The notes under the pieces were generated by a model. The model did no database searches. It was not told the DNA's origin and worked only from the letters and a program-made list of their open reading frames with translations. From a virus, in IMG/VR virus record IMGVR_UViG_3300033141_005199, positions 1 to 58,395 of that record: a stretch of 58,395 nt of DNA; one strand, given 5' to 3'. Below, in pieces: positions 4,714 to 30,758 of the stretch (the first letter of the stretch is position 1; each line of letters opens with the position of its first letter). Both the position numbers and the translations under genes were made by a program.

Positions 4714-4727
4714 GTATTTAAGCTTTA
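4714..4727 (-). promoter_or_regulatory. BRE/TATA promoter for the ssDNA-binding protein operon
   Basis: On the minus strand the sequence reads AAAGCTTAAATAC, a TATA box with a purine-rich BRE. It sits about 35 nt before the TTG start at 4682 and overlaps the stop codon of the MCM gene. The same core recurs before many genes in this genome. Confidence 0.75.
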
Positions 4728-7700
4728 CGATTTGCCATCACTCCAACTCATGAGGGTTGTGGGACAAGCAACGTAGCCGTATTTAGGCTCCCATATGATG
4801 TCACGCTCCAACGCGTAGTCAATGATCTTACGCGCCCTAGTTGAGTCAACGTTGCCGAGGCTCAGTAGCTTCTCCTTCAGCTCACGTACGCCGATCATCG
4901 GGTTGCCGTTAACAGTCATATGGTAGTCCCCCGACTCAACCATTGACTCGATGATCCGTGGGAGATACCTTGCCTGCTCCTCCAGGCTCTTAGGCGCCAT
5001 GCCCTCGAATGGTGCAACGTCAACCTTACCTGTGTATGGATCCTTCCACGTCTCGTTGATGTATAGCTCGAATAGCCTTATAGCCCTCTCAGCGTCATCC
5101 ATCGACGCCTCTTCCCGTAGATGCATTCTGGCTGACGCCTCTGTTAGGCGTTCAAGAGCCTCTATCTGCCTAGGAGTTATCTGAAGCCCGTTACCGTCAA
5201 GCGCGCACTCCCTCCGCTTAGATATGAAGTATGTCTTCAGCCTCATAAGGGCATCCCTGCTGACACGCGGCGTAACCGTCTTACTGTACGCTACGTATTG
5301 CTTAAGATCCTCGACGCTAAGCATGGGGTGCATAGTGTCGCCTAAGCCGAGTATCCTGTCAACCATCGCGCTGTCACGCTCCTCATCCATCGGGTCAAGC
5401 ATAATGAATATCAAATCGAATCTGCTGAGTAGGCTAGGTGGGAAGCCTTTAACGTTCTCAGGGATCGTCTTATACACGTTATACACGCCGTCACTCGGGT
5501 TACACGCGGCAATCACCCCACACCTGCTATTCAAGGTTGCGTGAAGCCCACCCTTATCAATCGGGATAATCTGCTGCTCCATCGCTGGGTGAATCTTCTC
5601 ACGATCCTCCTTATTCATCTTGTCCAGTTCATCGAGACAGTTGTGGACGGTTGCACCACAGAGTACGAAGCTGTGGGTGTGTTTGATTGTTAGGTCGTAG
5701 ACTCTTCGCTTTCCCTTTTTCTCGACGGACTTCACGGGGTTCAACAGATATGGTTTGACTGGTGGTTTAAACGGTTTGCCGGCTAGCCTAACCCAGTGCG
5801 GTCTGAGTGTTTCCATGAGTTCGACGGTTACCCGCCTCTTCTTAAGTGCGAGGTATATTCTACTGGATAACCCTGTTTTCACTGCGTAGCTCCAGTTGAA
5901 CTTGGTGTCTTCAAACCATTTGAAGTAGTCGTCATCCAGCACGCTGTCATAACTGGTTATCTTGGTTTTGGGTTCCACGTGGTATAGTTTCGCCTTGTTT
6001 TTCCCGACCACCCTGTCTTTGAACAGCTCTACTACTCGGTTATAGCTTCTCAGGGATGTTATCCTTATGGTTCTCCCCCTTATAACTGACAGTATTCCGA
6101 GTTGGTGGAAGAGGCTGTTAACCAGCTTGACTAGGTTTAGTATAGTGTCACCGTATTTGGTTCTACCCAGAGTTATCGTTATCTCACGTTTCACGCCGTG
6201 GGATCCCTTCTTGTGGGAAACACAGGCGTCGGTTGAAAGTATGCCTGCGAGGAACCCGATTTTGTATCCGTAGGTGTGCTTCGCTAGGCGTTGGCGGTGA
6301 ATCAGGTTGAACAGTTCTCTTTTCAGCTTCTTAGAGGAGAACGACGCTGATATTGTAGGTGAGAACGTCGCTTGTTTTCCTTTAATATATGTTGTTTGGT
6401 TGTCTCTCTCATAAATGCTTGGCTTCTTCCCGTAGTGCTTCTCTATCAGGCTTAAAACATACTGCGTCCTATCACTGTTCTTCTTCGACGCGGAGAAACA
6501 TAAACCGTTTTTAATCGACTTCTCGTTCAAGTAAATGTCTGAGACCCCGAAGCCGTGGATAAACCCAACTTCAAAATCCTCCTCATCAACCACACCAGTC
6601 TCTATGGTTGGAATCTTAACATAATCCCCATCCGTCAGACGCCCTGCCTCAACCCAACCCCTCTGAGTCAGAACCAGATGATCACCTGTACACACCACCT
6701 CATCCCCACTATACAGCTTGACCACAACAGTGTCCTTCTCACCATTATAGAATTTATTAACAACCTCCTCGAATACCCCACCCATCCCTAGAACCCAATC
6801 ACCAACTTCAACCTCCTGTATTCGCTTCAAACCACTCCTCGTAACCACGAATTGATCCTCAGCGATACACGCCGTTCCCATATCGGCGAGTGCCATTGTC
6901 CCAGCGGCCAGCACGAATCTGCCATCACTATCCTTAGTCAAGGCAGCCGTAAGGCCGACGCCACTTACACCTCCTCCACTGCTGTAGACTCCACGTACAC
7001 TTGCCTTAGATGCGAAGAGTAGGAACTGTGTGTTGTGAGTTGGCACAAGTTCTTTTCCACAAAGGAATAAATGGCTAGGACTATCAACAGCTATACATTT
7101 AACTGGGACTGTTTCTCTTTTTCTAACCTCAACAATATATCTTTGTCTGGTGGTTTTTCTCTGAGTTTTTCTTTTTTTCTTGTTTTTACGTGAAAGCCTA
7201 AATATTGGAAGATTTGTCGTGAAATAAATTTTAAAAACGTCCTTACATTTCTTGCCGCCATATGAACCCGTTGCCTTACTAACTGTGTTTTTAATTCCCA
7301 GACTCCATAAAAGACTACGCACCGCTTGCATAAGTTCCTTGTTGGTCGTAATAAATACTGATGAAGAAGGTTCTTGGGTTCCATCGGAATCCATAAGTCC
7401 CTGTAAAAGAGAGAGTCTTTGTTCAATAGATGAGAATAAATACTCCTCGGGTATGTGTTTGTTTCCAAGAAGATTGTTTTCTCTTAACAATTTCCGTAAT
7501 CCTAAGATTCCATATTCATATTTTCTGCTTTTCCTTTTTCTTATTTTAAATCCATCCTTTTTAATTTCCTCTAATATTTCTTCTTCAGCGCATGTTATGG
7601 CCCCATCATTTGAATTTCCATCACCAAGCCATATTCCAAGAGTGTAAGGTGGTATTGGCAGATTTCTTTCTGGAAACTTAACTGGCTTTGCCATTGGAAT

Positions 7701-9005
7701 GGAGTGATTGGTTCGTTCACCGTTTTTCTCTTTTATTTTTAGGGTGTTCTTTATCTCAAGAGTTGTTTTGATTGATGGGGGAATAGGTTTATATTTTCGC
7801 CTCCCATTGTTTTTAAGCCTTCCACATCTCAATTTTTTTTCATACACCTGCTGTGAACGGCGGGAGGCCCTTGTTGATGTAAGCCATAAATGACCTGCGT
7901 CAGCAGTTATAACTGTTCTATCATCAAACACAACATCATAGACATCGTGGTTATACATAATTGGAGATGTGGCTATAACATTACAAGGATTCCCATTTTC
8001 ATCGAAAACAACATCCCCGATAACCACATCTCTCATTTTCTTCCATCCATTGGTTGTTAAGATTGGGGTTTCTATATCCAATGCCTTCGCTGTACCCGGG
8101 TTCCCTATGAGTAGTATGTGGATGTCGCCTCGCCTATATAGTCCTCCCTTCTCCTTACGTACTCCGCCGAATAGGCTTAGCAGTATTGCCTCCTTGATGT
8201 GGCGCCACCCATATATGCTTGGGGCGAAGCTCTCAATCAACACGTCGTCTAGGTCTTCTCTGCGAGCCAGCTCATGGAACCACTCAGCCTTCTCAGGGGT
8301 GAACTCCTGGTTGATGAAGTCCTTGTTCAATACCTCAATGTAGTTGACCTCAACGTAGTTCTCGAAGTGGACGCTGCGGCTATTAGGCTGAATCGGCTTC
8401 ACGATGACAGTCATCCTAACTAGGTCTCCGGGGGTGACGGATCGTATGAGGCTTCCACGGAGCAGCCCTGTCAGTGGCTCAGGTATCTCGCCTGGGGGGA
8501 GCTCGTCTGGTCTCTCCTGTATTGTGATTCTCTGCACGTTCTGGAATAGACTCTTATTCTCGTCGAGTTTCCAGTTTCTACGGTTTCCGCAGAGCGGGCA
8601 CTTTATGGGTTTCACGATGTTGAAGTCGTCCTGCTTCACGCGTTCACTTGCCCCGCAGACTCCGCATATCCACTCCCCCTCTATGAGGGCGGATTCAGGT
8701 ATGGCTGTGCTCACCACCATTGCCTCCAGCTGTATGAGTTTCCCGTATAGCGTTGAGTCTACTCCACGTATATTGGTGGTCTCCACAAGGTTTCTGACTC
8801 TAACGGTTTTACCAACTGCGTCACTGTATATTTGTAGCATCTGCTCAGCGTTCTCCAGCAGGTGGATGGCGTCGTCAGGGTGCTCAGCGTAGAACTCTGT
8901 GAAGTCAACCACAAGCTCAGATGAGTCACTGTGCAGACTTACCTCACGTATCCCGCCGTCATGCAGAAACTCTATGAAAGTGTCCTCAGTGTAGACGTCA
9001 CTCAA
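4725..9005 (-). CDS. mcm: MCM replicative helicase interrupted by two inteins
   Basis: The exteins give an MCM of about 665 aa. In order they hold an N-terminal domain with a zinc motif (CGVC...CPLC), the AAA+ Walker A GNPGTAK, the strand around GVYSSGGGVSGVGL, Walker B CLDELDKM, the arginine finger LLSRFDLIF, and a C-terminal winged helix. MCM is the hexameric 3'-5' helicase that opens archaeal replication forks. One intein splits Walker A between K and T, and a second sits just before the Walker B cysteine, so the helicase is inactive until both splice out. I chose the TTG start at 9005 because it overlaps the upstream stop (TTGAGTGA) and follows a GGAGG. A start at 9110 would overlap the neighbour by over 100 bases and add residues unlike MCM. 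Confidence 0.93.
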   Translation of the reverse strand: MSDVYTEDTFIEFLHDGGIREVSLHSDSSELVVDFTEFYAEHPDDAIHLLENAEQMLQIYSDAVGKTVRVRNLVETTNIRGVDSTLYGKLIQLEAMVVSTAIPESALIEGEWICGVCGASERVKQDDFNIVKPIKCPLCGNRRNWKLDENKSLFQNVQRITIQERPDELPPGEIPEPLTGLLRGSLIRSVTPGDLVRMTVIVKPIQPNSRSVHFENYVEVNYIEVLNKDFINQEFTPEKAEWFHELARREDLDDVLIESFAPSIYGWRHIKEAILLSLFGGVRKEKGGLYRRGDIHILLIGNPGTAKALDIETPILTTNGWKKMRDVVIGDVVFDENGNPCNVIATSPIMYNHDVYDVVFDDRTVITADAGHLWLTSTRASRRSQQVYEKKLRCGRLKNNGRRKYKPIPPSIKTTLEIKNTLKIKEKNGERTNHSIPMAKPVKFPERNLPIPPYTLGIWLGDGNSNDGAITCAEEEILEEIKKDGFKIRKRKSRKYEYGILGLRKLLRENNLLGNKHIPEEYLFSSIEQRLSLLQGLMDSDGTQEPSSSVFITTNKELMQAVRSLLWSLGIKNTVSKATGSYGGKKCKDVFKIYFTTNLPIFRLSRKNKKKRKTQRKTTRQRYIVEVRKRETVPVKCIAVDSPSHLFLCGKELVPTHNTQFLLFASKASVRGVYSSGGGVSGVGLTAALTKDSDGRFVLAAGTMALADMGTACIAEDQFVVTRSGLKRIQEVEVGDWVLGMGGVFEEVVNKFYNGEKDTVVVKLYSGDEVVCTGDHLVLTQRGWVEAGRLTDGDYVKIPTIETGVVDEEDFEVGFIHGFGVSDIYLNEKSIKNGLCFSASKKNSDRTQYVLSLIEKHYGKKPSIYERDNQTTYIKGKQATFSPTISASFSSKKLKRELFNLIHRQRLAKHTYGYKIGFLAGILSTDACVSHKKGSHGVKREITITLGRTKYGDTILNLVKLVNSLFHQLGILSVIRGRTIRITSLRSYNRVVELFKDRVVGKNKAKLYHVEPKTKITSYDSVLDDDYFKWFEDTKFNWSYAVKTGLSSRIYLALKKRRVTVELMETLRPHWVRLAGKPFKPPVKPYLLNPVKSVEKKGKRRVYDLTIKHTHSFVLCGATVHNCLDELDKMNKEDREKIHPAMEQQIIPIDKGGLHATLNSRCGVIAACNPSDGVYNVYKTIPENVKGFPPSLLSRFDLIFIMLDPMDEERDSAMVDRILGLGDTMHPMLSVEDLKQYVAYSKTVTPRVSRDALMRLKTYFISKRRECALDGNGLQITPRQIEALERLTEASARMHLREEASMDDAERAIRLFELYINETWKDPYTGKVDVAPFEGMAPKSLEEQARYLPRIIESMVESGDYHMTVNGNPMIGVRELKEKLLSLGNVDSTRARKIIDYALERDIIWEPKYGYVACPTTLMSWSDGKS
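5640..6869 (-). mobile_element. Intein 2 in MCM (canonical, with LAGLIDADG homing endonuclease)
   Basis: This is a 410-residue insertion between LADMGTA and CLDELDKM. It begins with Cys (CIAEDQFVV), has a block B TGDH, a block F VYDL, ends in VHN, and is followed by Cys, all as in class 1 inteins. The endonuclease region contains FLAGILSTDA, a LAGLIDADG motif with an acidic residue, and a weaker FIHGFGVSD. Homing endonucleases spread the intein into empty alleles. The insertion site lies next to the ATPase Walker B, a site also used in other archaeal MCM genes. Confidence 0.9.
7032..8084 (-). mobile_element. Intein 1 in MCM (class 3-like, with LAGLIDADG homing endonuclease)
   Basis: This is a 351-residue insertion within Walker A, between GNPGTAK and TQFLL. 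It begins with Ala (ALDIETPIL) instead of Cys or Ser. It has Trp in block B (ADAGHLW), Cys in block F (VKCIAVDSPSH) and Thr in block G (VPTHN), which is the WCT signature of class 3 inteins, and it is followed by Thr. The endonuclease motifs are LGIWLGDG and LLQGLMDSDG. The DNA is clearly more A+T-rich than the surrounding extein, consistent with later arrival. Confidence 0.85.
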
Positions 9006-9576
9006 GGTAGCTGTAAGCCTCCTCAAGTAGCTCCGTGAACTCGTCACTCGTATCAGGAACATCGCTTGCACGCAGCAGTAGGTTAAGCAGCTGACCCTCA
9101 TACTCGTCACGCCTCTCCTCTATGCCAGCCCTCCTCATACTATCCAGTATCCTGATGTGGCGACGTATCTCCCTGCTCAGAACCTTAACCTTGATCTCCC
9201 GACGCCTATCAGGCGCTGCCTCACGTATCTTACGCTGAATCAGGTAGGTTCTATTCGCCACAGGGTTCCCAAGCATATAGTCGAGCATAGCCTCCTCGAG
9301 GCACACGCCAACCCCCCTGCTGAGCGCCCTACAGTGCTCCCTGAAGAGACGCACTATGTTCTTTGACACTCTGAACGTTGTGATAGTCTTCTCCTCAACC
9401 CCAACCATGAGATCCTTCTCCTCCCCTTTATCTGTTTCATTATTATTATATGATGTAATATATTTAATATATTTAATATAATACAGGGGTTTAGGATTTT
9501 CGCCAGTATATAGGTTGAGGGAGCTAGGCTGAGGCTTCGCATATTCTCCGTCAGAAATACTGTTGGTGACAGTCAT
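8998..9576 (-). CDS. Ribbon-helix-helix-like DNA-binding protein
   Basis: The segment KTITTFRVSKNIVRLF followed by a helix (REHCRALSRGVGVCLEEAMLDYM) resembles a ribbon-helix-helix DNA-binding fold, with a basic helical C-terminal half (REIKVKVLSREIRRHIRI). It directly precedes and overlaps the MCM start, so it may regulate replication genes or act as an origin-binding factor; this is inference. The longest frame starts at 9609, but a TATA box (TTTTTTAAAT) overlaps that codon, so I prefer ATG 9576. ATG 9408, preceded by a strong GGAGGAGAAGG and an A+T-rich tandem repeat, is an equally serious alternative. Confidence 0.65.
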   Translation of the reverse strand: MTVTNSISDGEYAKPQPSSLNLYTGENPKPLYYIKYIKYITSYNNNETDKGEEKDLMVGVEEKTITTFRVSKNIVRLFREHCRALSRGVGVCLEEAMLDYMLGNPVANRTYLIQRKIREAAPDRRREIKVKVLSREIRRHIRILDSMRRAGIEERRDEYEGQLLNLLLRASDVPDTSDEFTELLEEAYSYLE

Positions 9577-10674: not shown

Positions 10675-10679
10675 ATACT
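10671..10679 (+). promoter_or_regulatory. TATA box of the second phosphatase gene
   Basis: The sequence CCTTAAATACTT overlaps the stop codon of the XPF-type gene and lies about 20 nt before ATG 10694. It is a copy of the genome-wide CTTAAATAC promoter core. Confidence 0.65.
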
Positions 10680-10693
10680 TGGCTACATTATCT

Positions 10694-11176
10694 ATGCTTG
10701 TGTTAAACCATATACGATTGGCACCTGTCAAGATATATGCGTATGCGGTGAGTGTGTTGACTGGGAGACGCGGTAAATATAGTGAACTCAGCTGGGTTAC
10801 GGACAGGTTGGCGGTGGGGGACATAGCTCTATCAGATAACCCTCAGCTGGCTAGGGGGGAGAACGTAGACTACGTGCTGGATGTACGCCACCTATTCACA
10901 GAGGATATGGGGTTACGGGTAGAGAAGGCGGATAGGTTCGCGGATGGAGTGGCGATGCTTCTTGGCGCTGGGTACAGGGTTGCCCTTCACTGCTATGGCG
11001 GGATAGATCGTAGCCCATTCATAGCTGCGATGATTTTAGCCAAGCACATGGATATTAGCCTTGAGTCAGCTTATAACTTAGTGCTGAGGAAAAGAGTTAT
11101 CGCATTCAGGCACCCTGAGTGGATTAGGGTTACTGAGCAATTCTACGATTACTGGGACGTTGTGGATAATAGTTAA
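10694..11176 (+). CDS. Second dual-specificity-type phosphatase
   Basis: HCYGGIDRSPF contains the Cys-x5-Arg loop (about C100 and R106 in a 160-aa protein), with an upstream VTDRLAVGD in place of the LYLG element. The core GG-hydrophobic-DRSPF is shared with the phosphatase at 700-1269, so they are paralogues or two captures of one family. It would hydrolyse phosphate esters through a phosphocysteine; protein or RNA substrates are both possible. ATG 10694 follows the TATA box; an in-frame TTG at 10679 abuts it and is unlikely. Confidence 0.85.
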   Translation: MLVLNHIRLAPVKIYAYAVSVLTGRRGKYSELSWVTDRLAVGDIALSDNPQLARGENVDYVLDVRHLFTEDMGLRVEKADRFADGVAMLLGAGYRVALHCYGGIDRSPFIAAMILAKHMDISLESAYNLVLRKRVIAFRHPEWIRVTEQFYDYWDVVDNS

Positions 11177-28292: not shown

Positions 28293-30758
28293 TTGGCGGT
28301 TAAAACAGTCAACGTATTCAGGGAAGACTACGAGTATAACCCACACCCCGCGCAGAGACTAGTACACGCCAGCGAAGCCAGGATACGGTGCTTAGTGTGT
28401 GTCCCAGAGGACACTTTTCTCCTTGGGGAGAATAAGGAGGCTAAAGACATTTCCGTAGGCGATGTGCTTCTCGGATGTGATGGGGGTGAGGTTGCCGTAG
28501 TGGATAAGATTTACGCGTCGTCCAGTAGCCTTGTAGAGGTTAACGCAAGGGGGCTTCTCCCATTCAAGGTGACGCCTGAACACCCTCTCCTAGTGTCGGA
28601 GGTTGATAAAAACTCTAATTACTACGCTTACTCGAAGGGTAGGAGAAACAGGAAAACAGTTAAAACAGTTGTCTCAACGATGTGGGTTGAGGCTGGCGAC
28701 GTTGAATGCTTGCTTAGAGGCAAGGATTACAAGACTGAGTACTATTTACATCTCCCAGTAATTAAACCAGCGTCAAACCTAAAGGAATATAGGTTTAATA
28801 ACACATATCAAAAATATAGGCAGGGCTCCCTCCCCCTGAACAAGGATACGGCTTGGGCGATAGGGCTTTACATCGCGGAGGGGTTCGGGAAAAGAAGAGT
28901 TAATTGGTCGCTGTGTAATGATGAGGGTGATAAAGCTGAACGGCTTAAATCAATATTTGAGGAGTTAGGCTATTATGTAAGCATCAGGGAAAAACCAGAT
29001 GTCAGCCTACTTGTGGTCTCAGTCTCCTCCGCAAGCTTAGCCAGATTGTTTAGAGATATATGTGGGCATGGGGCACATAATAAACATATACCATACGACA
29101 TACTCTACCATGAAGACGAGGAAATATTGGCGTCTTGTCTGAGAGGGTATCTTGACGGTGATGCTTTCCAGAGAAAGAACACGCTGTATGTGGAGGGAAA
29201 TACTAGGAGCATCAGGTTGGCGTATGAGCTACAATTGGCTACAGCTAGACTAGGGCAACCATTAGTCCTACATAATGGCAGGTCAGATGACAGTATTTGT
29301 AATGGGCAACTAATTAAGGGGTCTAAGAGATATTGTTTCTCAATCACAGGGTACGACGTGTTGAGGAAGATGGGCTACGACGCGAAAAACCCTCAACAAG
29401 ACAGAAGCTTCTACATTAAACACGGCGACTACTTCCTGATGAAGCTGAAGTCAGCTAAGACAATACACAAGCAGACAAGGGTTATAAACTTCACAACATC
29501 TGATGGAACATTCCTCGTTTCAAACATAGTCACACATAACTGCGGACGTAAGTGGGGTAAGACAACCCTCGCCATAAACGAGGTTGTGGAGTATGCGGGT
29601 GTCCCTGAGAGCATCATCTGGTGGGTTAGCCCAACCTACGGGGTGGGTGACGTTGCGTGGAAGCGGCTGCTCCTCAACCTTAACCCGCTTATAATTAAGC
29701 GTAAGAGTGAGCGGGATAAAACCATCACGTTGATAAATGACACTGTGGTAGCGTTCAAATCCGCTGACAACGAGAAGGGGTTGGTCGGCGAGGGTCTTGA
29801 CTTCGTGGTTATGGAGGAGGCAGCCTACATTAAGGAGAGTGTCTGGTATGAGACTGTCAGACCGAACCTCGGCGACAGTATGCGGAAGGGCGACGCGTTG
29901 CTGATAACGACGCCGAACGGCATGAACTACGTGTACCGTGAGTGGCTGAAGGGTCAGGATAAGCGGTTCCTCGACTACGAGAGCTGGAGATTCGAGCTAA
30001 GCGTACTGCCTATACTTAACGAAGTCATAGACAATATGGACGGCGGCTTCCCCTCGTGGACTAACCCACACTGGACGCGGAAAGAGCTACTATCAATCAT
30101 ACATCAGCCACGCAACATACTACTCCAGGAATACGGCGGAAGATTCGTTGAGGATCTTAGCAACGTGTTCACAGGCGTAGACCAGGTTATAGATAGAAGC
30201 ATTGGGCTTGAAGACCCTGTGCCTGGTAAGAAGTACTATGTGGGCTTCGACGTGGCGCGTAGGGGTGCTGGTGACAACGCGGTTATAACGGTTGTTGACG
30301 GGGACTTGAAGGTGTGCAGGGAGGTTGTGATGAACGGTAAGCCTCTCCCAGTGCAGGTTAGGGTTGCGAAGGAGATATGCGAGGAGTATAATGGGGCGCC
30401 GATACTCGTGGACACGACTAACCCGATGGGTGACAGCGTATTCGAGTTCATATACGAGGAATATAACAACGCTAAGGGGTTCCACTACACTAACGCTAAT
30501 AAACGTGACCTAATGGATAACCTAAGCATCGTCATACAAACCCGTAAACTCAAGATACCGATGAAGAACGATGAACTAGAGGAGCTAGTCAGGGAGCTAA
30601 AGGTATTCGGCGCAGATAGAACCAGAAACGGCAACATAGTGTACAGCGCACCACCAGGCTTCAAGGATGACAGACCGAATGCACTTGCATTAGCTGTTTG
30701 GCTAGCAATGGAGCATAAGCAGAGGTCTAAACCATTCGCAAGATTCATGGTGATATAA
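28293..30758 (+). CDS. terL: Terminase large subunit interrupted by an intein
   Basis: The exteins total about 440 aa. They hold Walker A CGRKWGKTT, Walker B LDFVVMEEAAY, the coupling motif LLITTPNG, and the RNase H-like nuclease with aspartates in GFDVARRG, ILVDTTN and DRPNALAL. This ATPase-nuclease packages DNA into the capsid and cuts it. A 381-residue intein sits immediately before the Cys of Walker A (residues 36-416 of the precursor), so packaging depends on splicing. It is followed by the portal gene, with only a short spacer. Confidence 0.95.
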   Translation: MAVKTVNVFREDYEYNPHPAQRLVHASEARIRCLVCVPEDTFLLGENKEAKDISVGDVLLGCDGGEVAVVDKIYASSSSLVEVNARGLLPFKVTPEHPLLVSEVDKNSNYYAYSKGRRNRKTVKTVVSTMWVEAGDVECLLRGKDYKTEYYLHLPVIKPASNLKEYRFNNTYQKYRQGSLPLNKDTAWAIGLYIAEGFGKRRVNWSLCNDEGDKAERLKSIFEELGYYVSIREKPDVSLLVVSVSSASLARLFRDICGHGAHNKHIPYDILYHEDEEILASCLRGYLDGDAFQRKNTLYVEGNTRSIRLAYELQLATARLGQPLVLHNGRSDDSICNGQLIKGSKRYCFSITGYDVLRKMGYDAKNPQQDRSFYIKHGDYFLMKLKSAKTIHKQTRVINFTTSDGTFLVSNIVTHNCGRKWGKTTLAINEVVEYAGVPESIIWWVSPTYGVGDVAWKRLLLNLNPLIIKRKSERDKTITLINDTVVAFKSADNEKGLVGEGLDFVVMEEAAYIKESVWYETVRPNLGDSMRKGDALLITTPNGMNYVYREWLKGQDKRFLDYESWRFELSVLPILNEVIDNMDGGFPSWTNPHWTRKELLSIIHQPRNILLQEYGGRFVEDLSNVFTGVDQVIDRSIGLEDPVPGKKYYVGFDVARRGAGDNAVITVVDGDLKVCREVVMNGKPLPVQVRVAKEICEEYNGAPILVDTTNPMGDSVFEFIYEEYNNAKGFHYTNANKRDLMDNLSIVIQTRKLKIPMKNDELEELVRELKVFGADRTRNGNIVYSAPPGFKDDRPNALALAVWLAMEHKQRSKPFARFMVI
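28398..29540 (+). mobile_element. Intein in the large terminase (canonical, with LAGLIDADG endonuclease)
   Basis: This is an insertion of 381 residues between RIRCLV and CGRKWGKT. It starts with Cys (CVPEDTFLL), has a block B TPEH, ends in VTHN and is followed by Cys, as in class 1 inteins. LAGLIDADG-type motifs are IGLYIAEGF and LRGYLDGDA. The central part is more A+T-rich than the exteins. Confidence 0.92.

Follow-up and report, generated by a model that had tools for sequence, protein, structure and literature searches.

A class 3-type intein at the Walker A lysine of the MCM helicase gene in an archaeal tailed virus

Class 3 inteins are a rare mechanistic class, seen mostly in phages and bacteria. 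They are defined by the lack of an N-terminal nucleophile together with Trp at B:12, Cys at F:4 and Thr at G:5; in addition, they have Ser or Thr at +1, and DxxH often replaces the TxxH of block B (PMC5222942, PMC6195587, PMC7664689). One survey counted 1701 class 3 inteins and reported an endonuclease domain in 82.5% of them (PMC7891396). The inteins of M. smegmatis DnaBi1 and M. chimaera DnaB1 (PDB 6bs8, 6rix and 6riy) are mini-inteins in a bacterial DnaB, and DnaBi1 has a Cys48-Cys118 redox pair (PMC6195587). Phage class 3 inteins, such as those of the Brevibacterium phage Rousseau DnaB and of mycobacteriophage and Rhodobacter phage terminases, carry a LAGLIDADG domain and are inserted between GK and the following Ser or Thr. 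In MCM, the insertion straight after the conserved Walker A lysine is known as MCM-a (PMC10643990). At this point, haloarchaea and other archaea carry inteins (also named CDC21-a) that belong to class 1.

Here, we analysed one virus record, 58,395 bases long, which is called the window below. A frame of 1461 codons without a stop was found on its minus strand (4725..9110; start codon provisional), and it encodes an MCM replicative helicase with two inserts, both in frame. The archaeal MCM model matches the unspliced frame in three pieces; when both inserts were removed, the remaining 700 residues gave one continuous match to NF040949 with 532.5 bits. The N-extein (8085..9110) contains the OB fold and the zinc finger and runs up to the Walker A sequence ...LLIGNPGTAK. 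It is followed by a first intein of 351 residues (7032..8084), a short extein that reads TQFLLFASK...ADMGTA (6870..7031), a second intein of 410 residues (5640..6869), and the C-extein, which extends from CLDELDKM to the C-terminus (4728..5639). The second intein is of the class 1 type, with Cys1 at its start and VHN before Cys+1, and it sits just before the acidic residues of Walker B. The frame, the junctions and the continuity of MCM after removal all bear out the first-pass annotation, which had placed an intein inside the Walker A motif at 7032-8084.

The first intein translates without a stop from ALDIETPIL to LVPTHN on the minus strand. Its flanks are ...LLIGNPGTAK and TQFLLFASK..., and the insertion is exact to the codon (GNPGTAK/TQ, the slash marking the intein), that is, at the MCM-a site. 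The start with Ala and the end in HN followed by Thr, which had been remarked before, can be read directly in the translation. Ala1 (8082..8084) provides no nucleophile. Block B (7884..7901) reads D62-A-G-H65-L-W67, with DAGH for TxxH and W67 at B:12. Cys330, within PVKCIAV (7095..7097), is at F:4 and is the predicted initiating nucleophile, and block G consists of T349 (G:5), H350 and N351 (7032..7040), directly ahead of Thr+1 of the C-extein. The proposed set of Trp in block B, Cys in block F and Thr in block G is therefore present. In the alignment with 42 relatives, H65, W67, C330, T349, H350 and N351 were all invariant. The class 3 signature occurred in 177 of the 188 full-length relatives, and nearly all of these relatives (186/188) had Ser or Thr at +1.

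We compared the intein with the sequences in the PDB using phmmer. The best matches were the class 3 DnaB inteins 6rix, 6riy and 6bs8, with E-values from 1.6e-22 to 1.8e-21, and the alignments extend over the two halves of the splicing domain, N-terminal and C-terminal. These E-values, together with the residues invariant in 42 relatives, exclude a chance match. The intein by itself was modelled with AlphaFold (pLDDT 94.8). The model resembles endonuclease-bearing inteins (PI-SceI) over its full length, and its Hint part gave target-normalised TM scores of 0.75-0.79 against 6bs8 and 6rix. The mycobacterial DnaB inteins share Ala1, the block F Cys, the THN end and the fold with the window intein, and even the numbering of D62, H65 and W67 is identical in DnaBi1. 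However, they are mini-inteins in a bacterial host protein, whereas the window intein keeps its LAGLIDADG domain. Position 48 is Val in the window intein, so that Cys48 of DnaBi1 has no counterpart and oxidative control through a pair of the Cys48-Cys118 type is not expected.

An intein that begins with Ala could also belong to class 2 (KlbA type), in which the +1 residue attacks the N-terminal junction directly and no block F nucleophile takes part. Class 2 inteins are archaeal, and Ala1 is indeed present here. However, class 2 inteins form one orthologous group with Cys as the +1 residue and Asp retained at F:4 (PMC4031507), whereas the window intein has Thr+1 and Cys at F:4. Because Cys+1 and Asp at F:4 are required, class 2 is ruled out; moreover, the class 3 marks W67 and T349 are present and invariant among the relatives and the PDB matches are to class 3, so that we leave this explanation almost no chance.

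A second explanation is that an ordinary MCM-a intein of class 1 lost its Cys1 and converged on a class 3 appearance. MCM-a is the standard site of such inteins, and with a DNA pattern we detected Cys1 inteins of the class 1 type at this site in 21 of 148 Halobacteriota genomes (15 of the pattern matches were read as sequence). The site is thus ordinary, and what is unusual is the class of the intein that occupies it. The archaeal MCM-a inteins that we compared all had Cys1, TP[ST]H in block B, YDL in block F and [SV]HN/S in block G, in contrast to Ala1, DAGH and Cys330 of the window intein. We constructed a tree of Hint domains in which class 1 was represented by seven archaeal MCM-a inteins, the second MCM intein of the window and the terminase intein of the window. 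Class 3 was separated from class 1 with a support of 99/96, the window intein falling on the class 3 side far from the MCM-a inteins, and this split recurred in 98% of 200 bootstraps. The closest identities were all to class 3 inteins, reaching 57% over the Hint domain and 42-47% over the whole length. When the window intein was constrained to group with the MCM-a class 1 inteins, the AU test gave p = 0.40. We read this value as uninformative: given the basal position of the window intein in the class 3 group, the constraint is already satisfied once two very long branches of class 1 are moved. Convergence from class 1 is accordingly considered extremely improbable. The phylogeny of the splicing domain agrees with the class 3 placement made in the first-pass annotation, and signature, structure-database match and tree together strongly support the prediction that the intein belongs to class 3.

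The LAGLIDADG domain is located at 7380..7649 on the minus strand. Its two motifs are LGIWLGDG with D155 (residues 146-156, PYTLGIWLGDG) and GLMDSDG with D232 and D234 (residues 226-235, LLQGLMDSDG), and block D, NKHIP with K209, lies between them; Pfam assigns the region to LAGLIDADG_3 and Hom_end. D155, K209, D232 and D234 were invariant in the 42-row alignment, and these residues point to a domain that is probably an active endonuclease.

We also calculated the base composition of the gene. The two long exteins have a G+C content of about 0.52 and a GC3 of about 0.64, whereas the values for the intein are 0.368 and 0.293. Nowhere else in the window is a stretch of equal length so poor in G+C, and no 1053-bp stretch that does not overlap the intein falls below 0.40; the second MCM intein is intermediate, with a G+C content of 0.468. 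This sharp break, together with the presence of two inteins in one gene, could be taken as a sign of a degraded, non-splicing intein or of an assembly chimera, and the MCM of the virus would then be broken. However, the frame keeps its 1461 stop-free codons, all splicing and endonuclease residues are intact, the junctions are codon-exact at a known intein site, and MCM is otherwise continuous. We therefore regard a broken gene as very unlikely. The low G+C content of the intein suggests, as an indirect argument, that it arrived in MCM recently and that its source had a lower G+C content.

The window contains structural genes for a terminase large subunit, a portal, a prohead protease, an HK97-type capsid protein and a tape measure protein. 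Alongside these head and tail genes, it encodes MCM, RadA, PCNA and an ERCC4-type nuclease, which are replication-type genes of archaea. The distant relatives of the capsid protein belong to haloarchaeal viruses and to a Methanomassiliicoccales virus, and the matches of RadA and MCM do not single out one phylum. By its gene content, the record that carries MCM is that of an archaeal tailed virus, not a piece of archaeal chromosome. The gene had earlier been called an archaeal MCM; MCM itself stands, but its place is on the record of an archaeal virus and not in an archaeal chromosome. Another IMG/VR contig, 13 kb long, encodes an identical capsid protein and represents the same virus from another assembly or sample; it does not include the MCM gene, and no MCM allele without the intein was found for this virus. 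Considering the evidence up to this point, we hold it very probable that a mobile class 3 intein invaded the viral MCM gene, with the Walker A lysine (MCM-a) as its point of entry, and that class 3 splicing would restore the P-loop. Archaeal viruses, then, can carry class 3 elements, and here one occupies a replicative helicase of the archaeal/eukaryotic type, in a place that in archaea is otherwise taken by class 1 inteins.

To learn how rare this combination is, we searched viral and archaeal sequences. A pattern search with the single protein retrieved no MCM relatives from IMG/VR, while an alignment query retrieved them. Among 80 related viral MCMs obtained in this way, no class 3 intein was found; nearly all had an intact P-loop, mostly GDP(G/S)xxK followed by Ser or Thr. 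DNA patterns that combined an MCM-like P-loop with a class 3 start matched the window alone in IMG/VR and nothing in 393 Halobacteriota genomes. The class 3-start pattern recovered the window, and the Cys1 version recovered the 21 Halobacteriota genomes mentioned above. One viral match of the Cys1 pattern had a short frame without an intein end, and it was discarded as a chance match for that reason. The intein protein was also compared with 152 Methanobacteriota and 393 Halobacteriota genomes; six genomes matched, none of them in MCM. These 545 genomes of two phyla define the scope of the archaeal search, and the searches for relatives may omit records very close to the window. No paper in the literature searched describes an MCM with a class 3 intein, but we do not claim a first case. 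The kind of element is already known, and the window intein is a new example of it in a host gene for which our searches gave ordinary inteins only.

The insertion point is shared far beyond MCM. For 151 of the 188 full-length relatives, the last two residues of the N-extein are G-[KR], which means insertion after the P-loop lysine, and the earlier remark that such inteins occupy the same functional spot is confirmed by this count. The hosts of the fetched relatives were terminases, DnaB, RecA-like proteins, DEAH helicases and other P-loop ATPases; MCM was absent from them. Phage terminase and DnaB class 3 inteins share the signature, the LAGLIDADG domain and the insertion point with the window intein, and differ in host protein and in the domain of life of the host, with identities of about 35-47%.

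Which of these hosts supplied the intein was explored with identities and the tree. That the intein descends directly from a class 3 intein in the DnaB of a bacterium or phage is suggested by the same Walker A position and by identities of 38-40% for some DnaB inteins, Brevibacterium phage Rousseau being the best phage record. However, the tree did not recover a grouping of the window intein with the DnaB inteins; the constrained tree was 19.7 lnL units worse with an AU p-value of 0.206, so that this grouping was neither supported nor rejected. The nearest rows of the tree were L171 and L169, without starred support, and no starred group within class 3 contained the window intein. The highest whole-length identities (46-47%) belonged to L089 and L169, the latter terminase-like by weak Pfam matches, and many other P-loop hosts were as close as DnaB. 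A DnaB origin is therefore rather unlikely in our estimate. The idea of the first-pass annotation that the intein was transferred between very different helicases is therefore one option among several. Inteins of different splicing classes occupy one and the same codon in MCM, and this agrees better with targeting of the P-loop itself than with inheritance along with the host protein. Repeated invasion of P-loop codons across many ATPases is better supported by the evidence than helicase-to-helicase transfer. A more specific scenario, which we put forward tentatively and consider possible but on balance doubtful, is that a class 3 intein with an endonuclease that recognises P-loop coding DNA recently moved into the MCM of an archaeal virus out of a bacterial-type phage gene. 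One codon position would then have been invaded across domains of life and across protein families, and the intein would now lie beside a class 1 intein, so that the helicase needs two splicing chemistries.

Splicing of the window intein can be proposed from its residues by analogy with class 3 chemistry. After translation the Hint domain would fold, and Cys330 of block F, aided by H65, D62, W67 and T349, would attack the peptide bond between Lys and Ala1. Cys330 would carry the N-extein as a thioester, and the N-extein would then move to Thr+1. Asn351 would cyclise with the help of H350, and an O-to-N shift would join ...GNPGTAK to TQFLLF..., restoring the P-loop (GNPGTAKTQ). The same polypeptide would also splice out the class 1 intein near Walker B. 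With the insert lying between the Walker A lysine and the Thr that follows it, ATP binding by the precursor is not expected; the precursor should therefore lack ATPase activity, and the function of MCM should depend on splicing at both inteins. As judged from the two sets of motifs, the MCM of this virus may be a natural example of a protein that depends on the success of both class 3 and class 1 splicing. The LAGLIDADG domain would probably cut the P-loop codons of MCM genes that have no intein, and spread the element in this way.

An archaeal context is shared by one more intein, found on a contig of a Methanobrevibacter MAG (L096), which is one of the six genome matches mentioned above. It has the class 3 signature, the P-loop site and 44% identity to the window intein. 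However, its host is a Rad3/DinG-like helicase located directly beside an MCM that is free of inteins, and a sister relation of the two inteins was unsupported (AU p-value 0.194). This is a second archaeal class 3 case, in another gene, and it probably also lies on a mobile element, one of a methanogen. Two further loci were observed in Methanobacteriota genomes. In genome G054, a terminase-like frame (L257) contains two class 3-like inserts, each ending in TPTHN/S, and in genome G135 there is an intein endonuclease remnant with an internal stop codon (L258).

The terminase large subunit gene of the window has an intein as well, on the plus strand (28398-29540, 381 aa). It has Cys1, TPEH and VTHN/Cys, is of the class 1 type, and sits just ahead of the P-loop GRKWGKT. 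With the two inteins in MCM, three inteins are thus present in one virus of 58 kb. In addition, two small proteins, encoded at 700-1269 on the minus strand and at 10679-11176 on the plus strand, have the motifs YCHGGVDRSPF and HCYGGIDRSPF and are dual-specificity-phosphatase-like.
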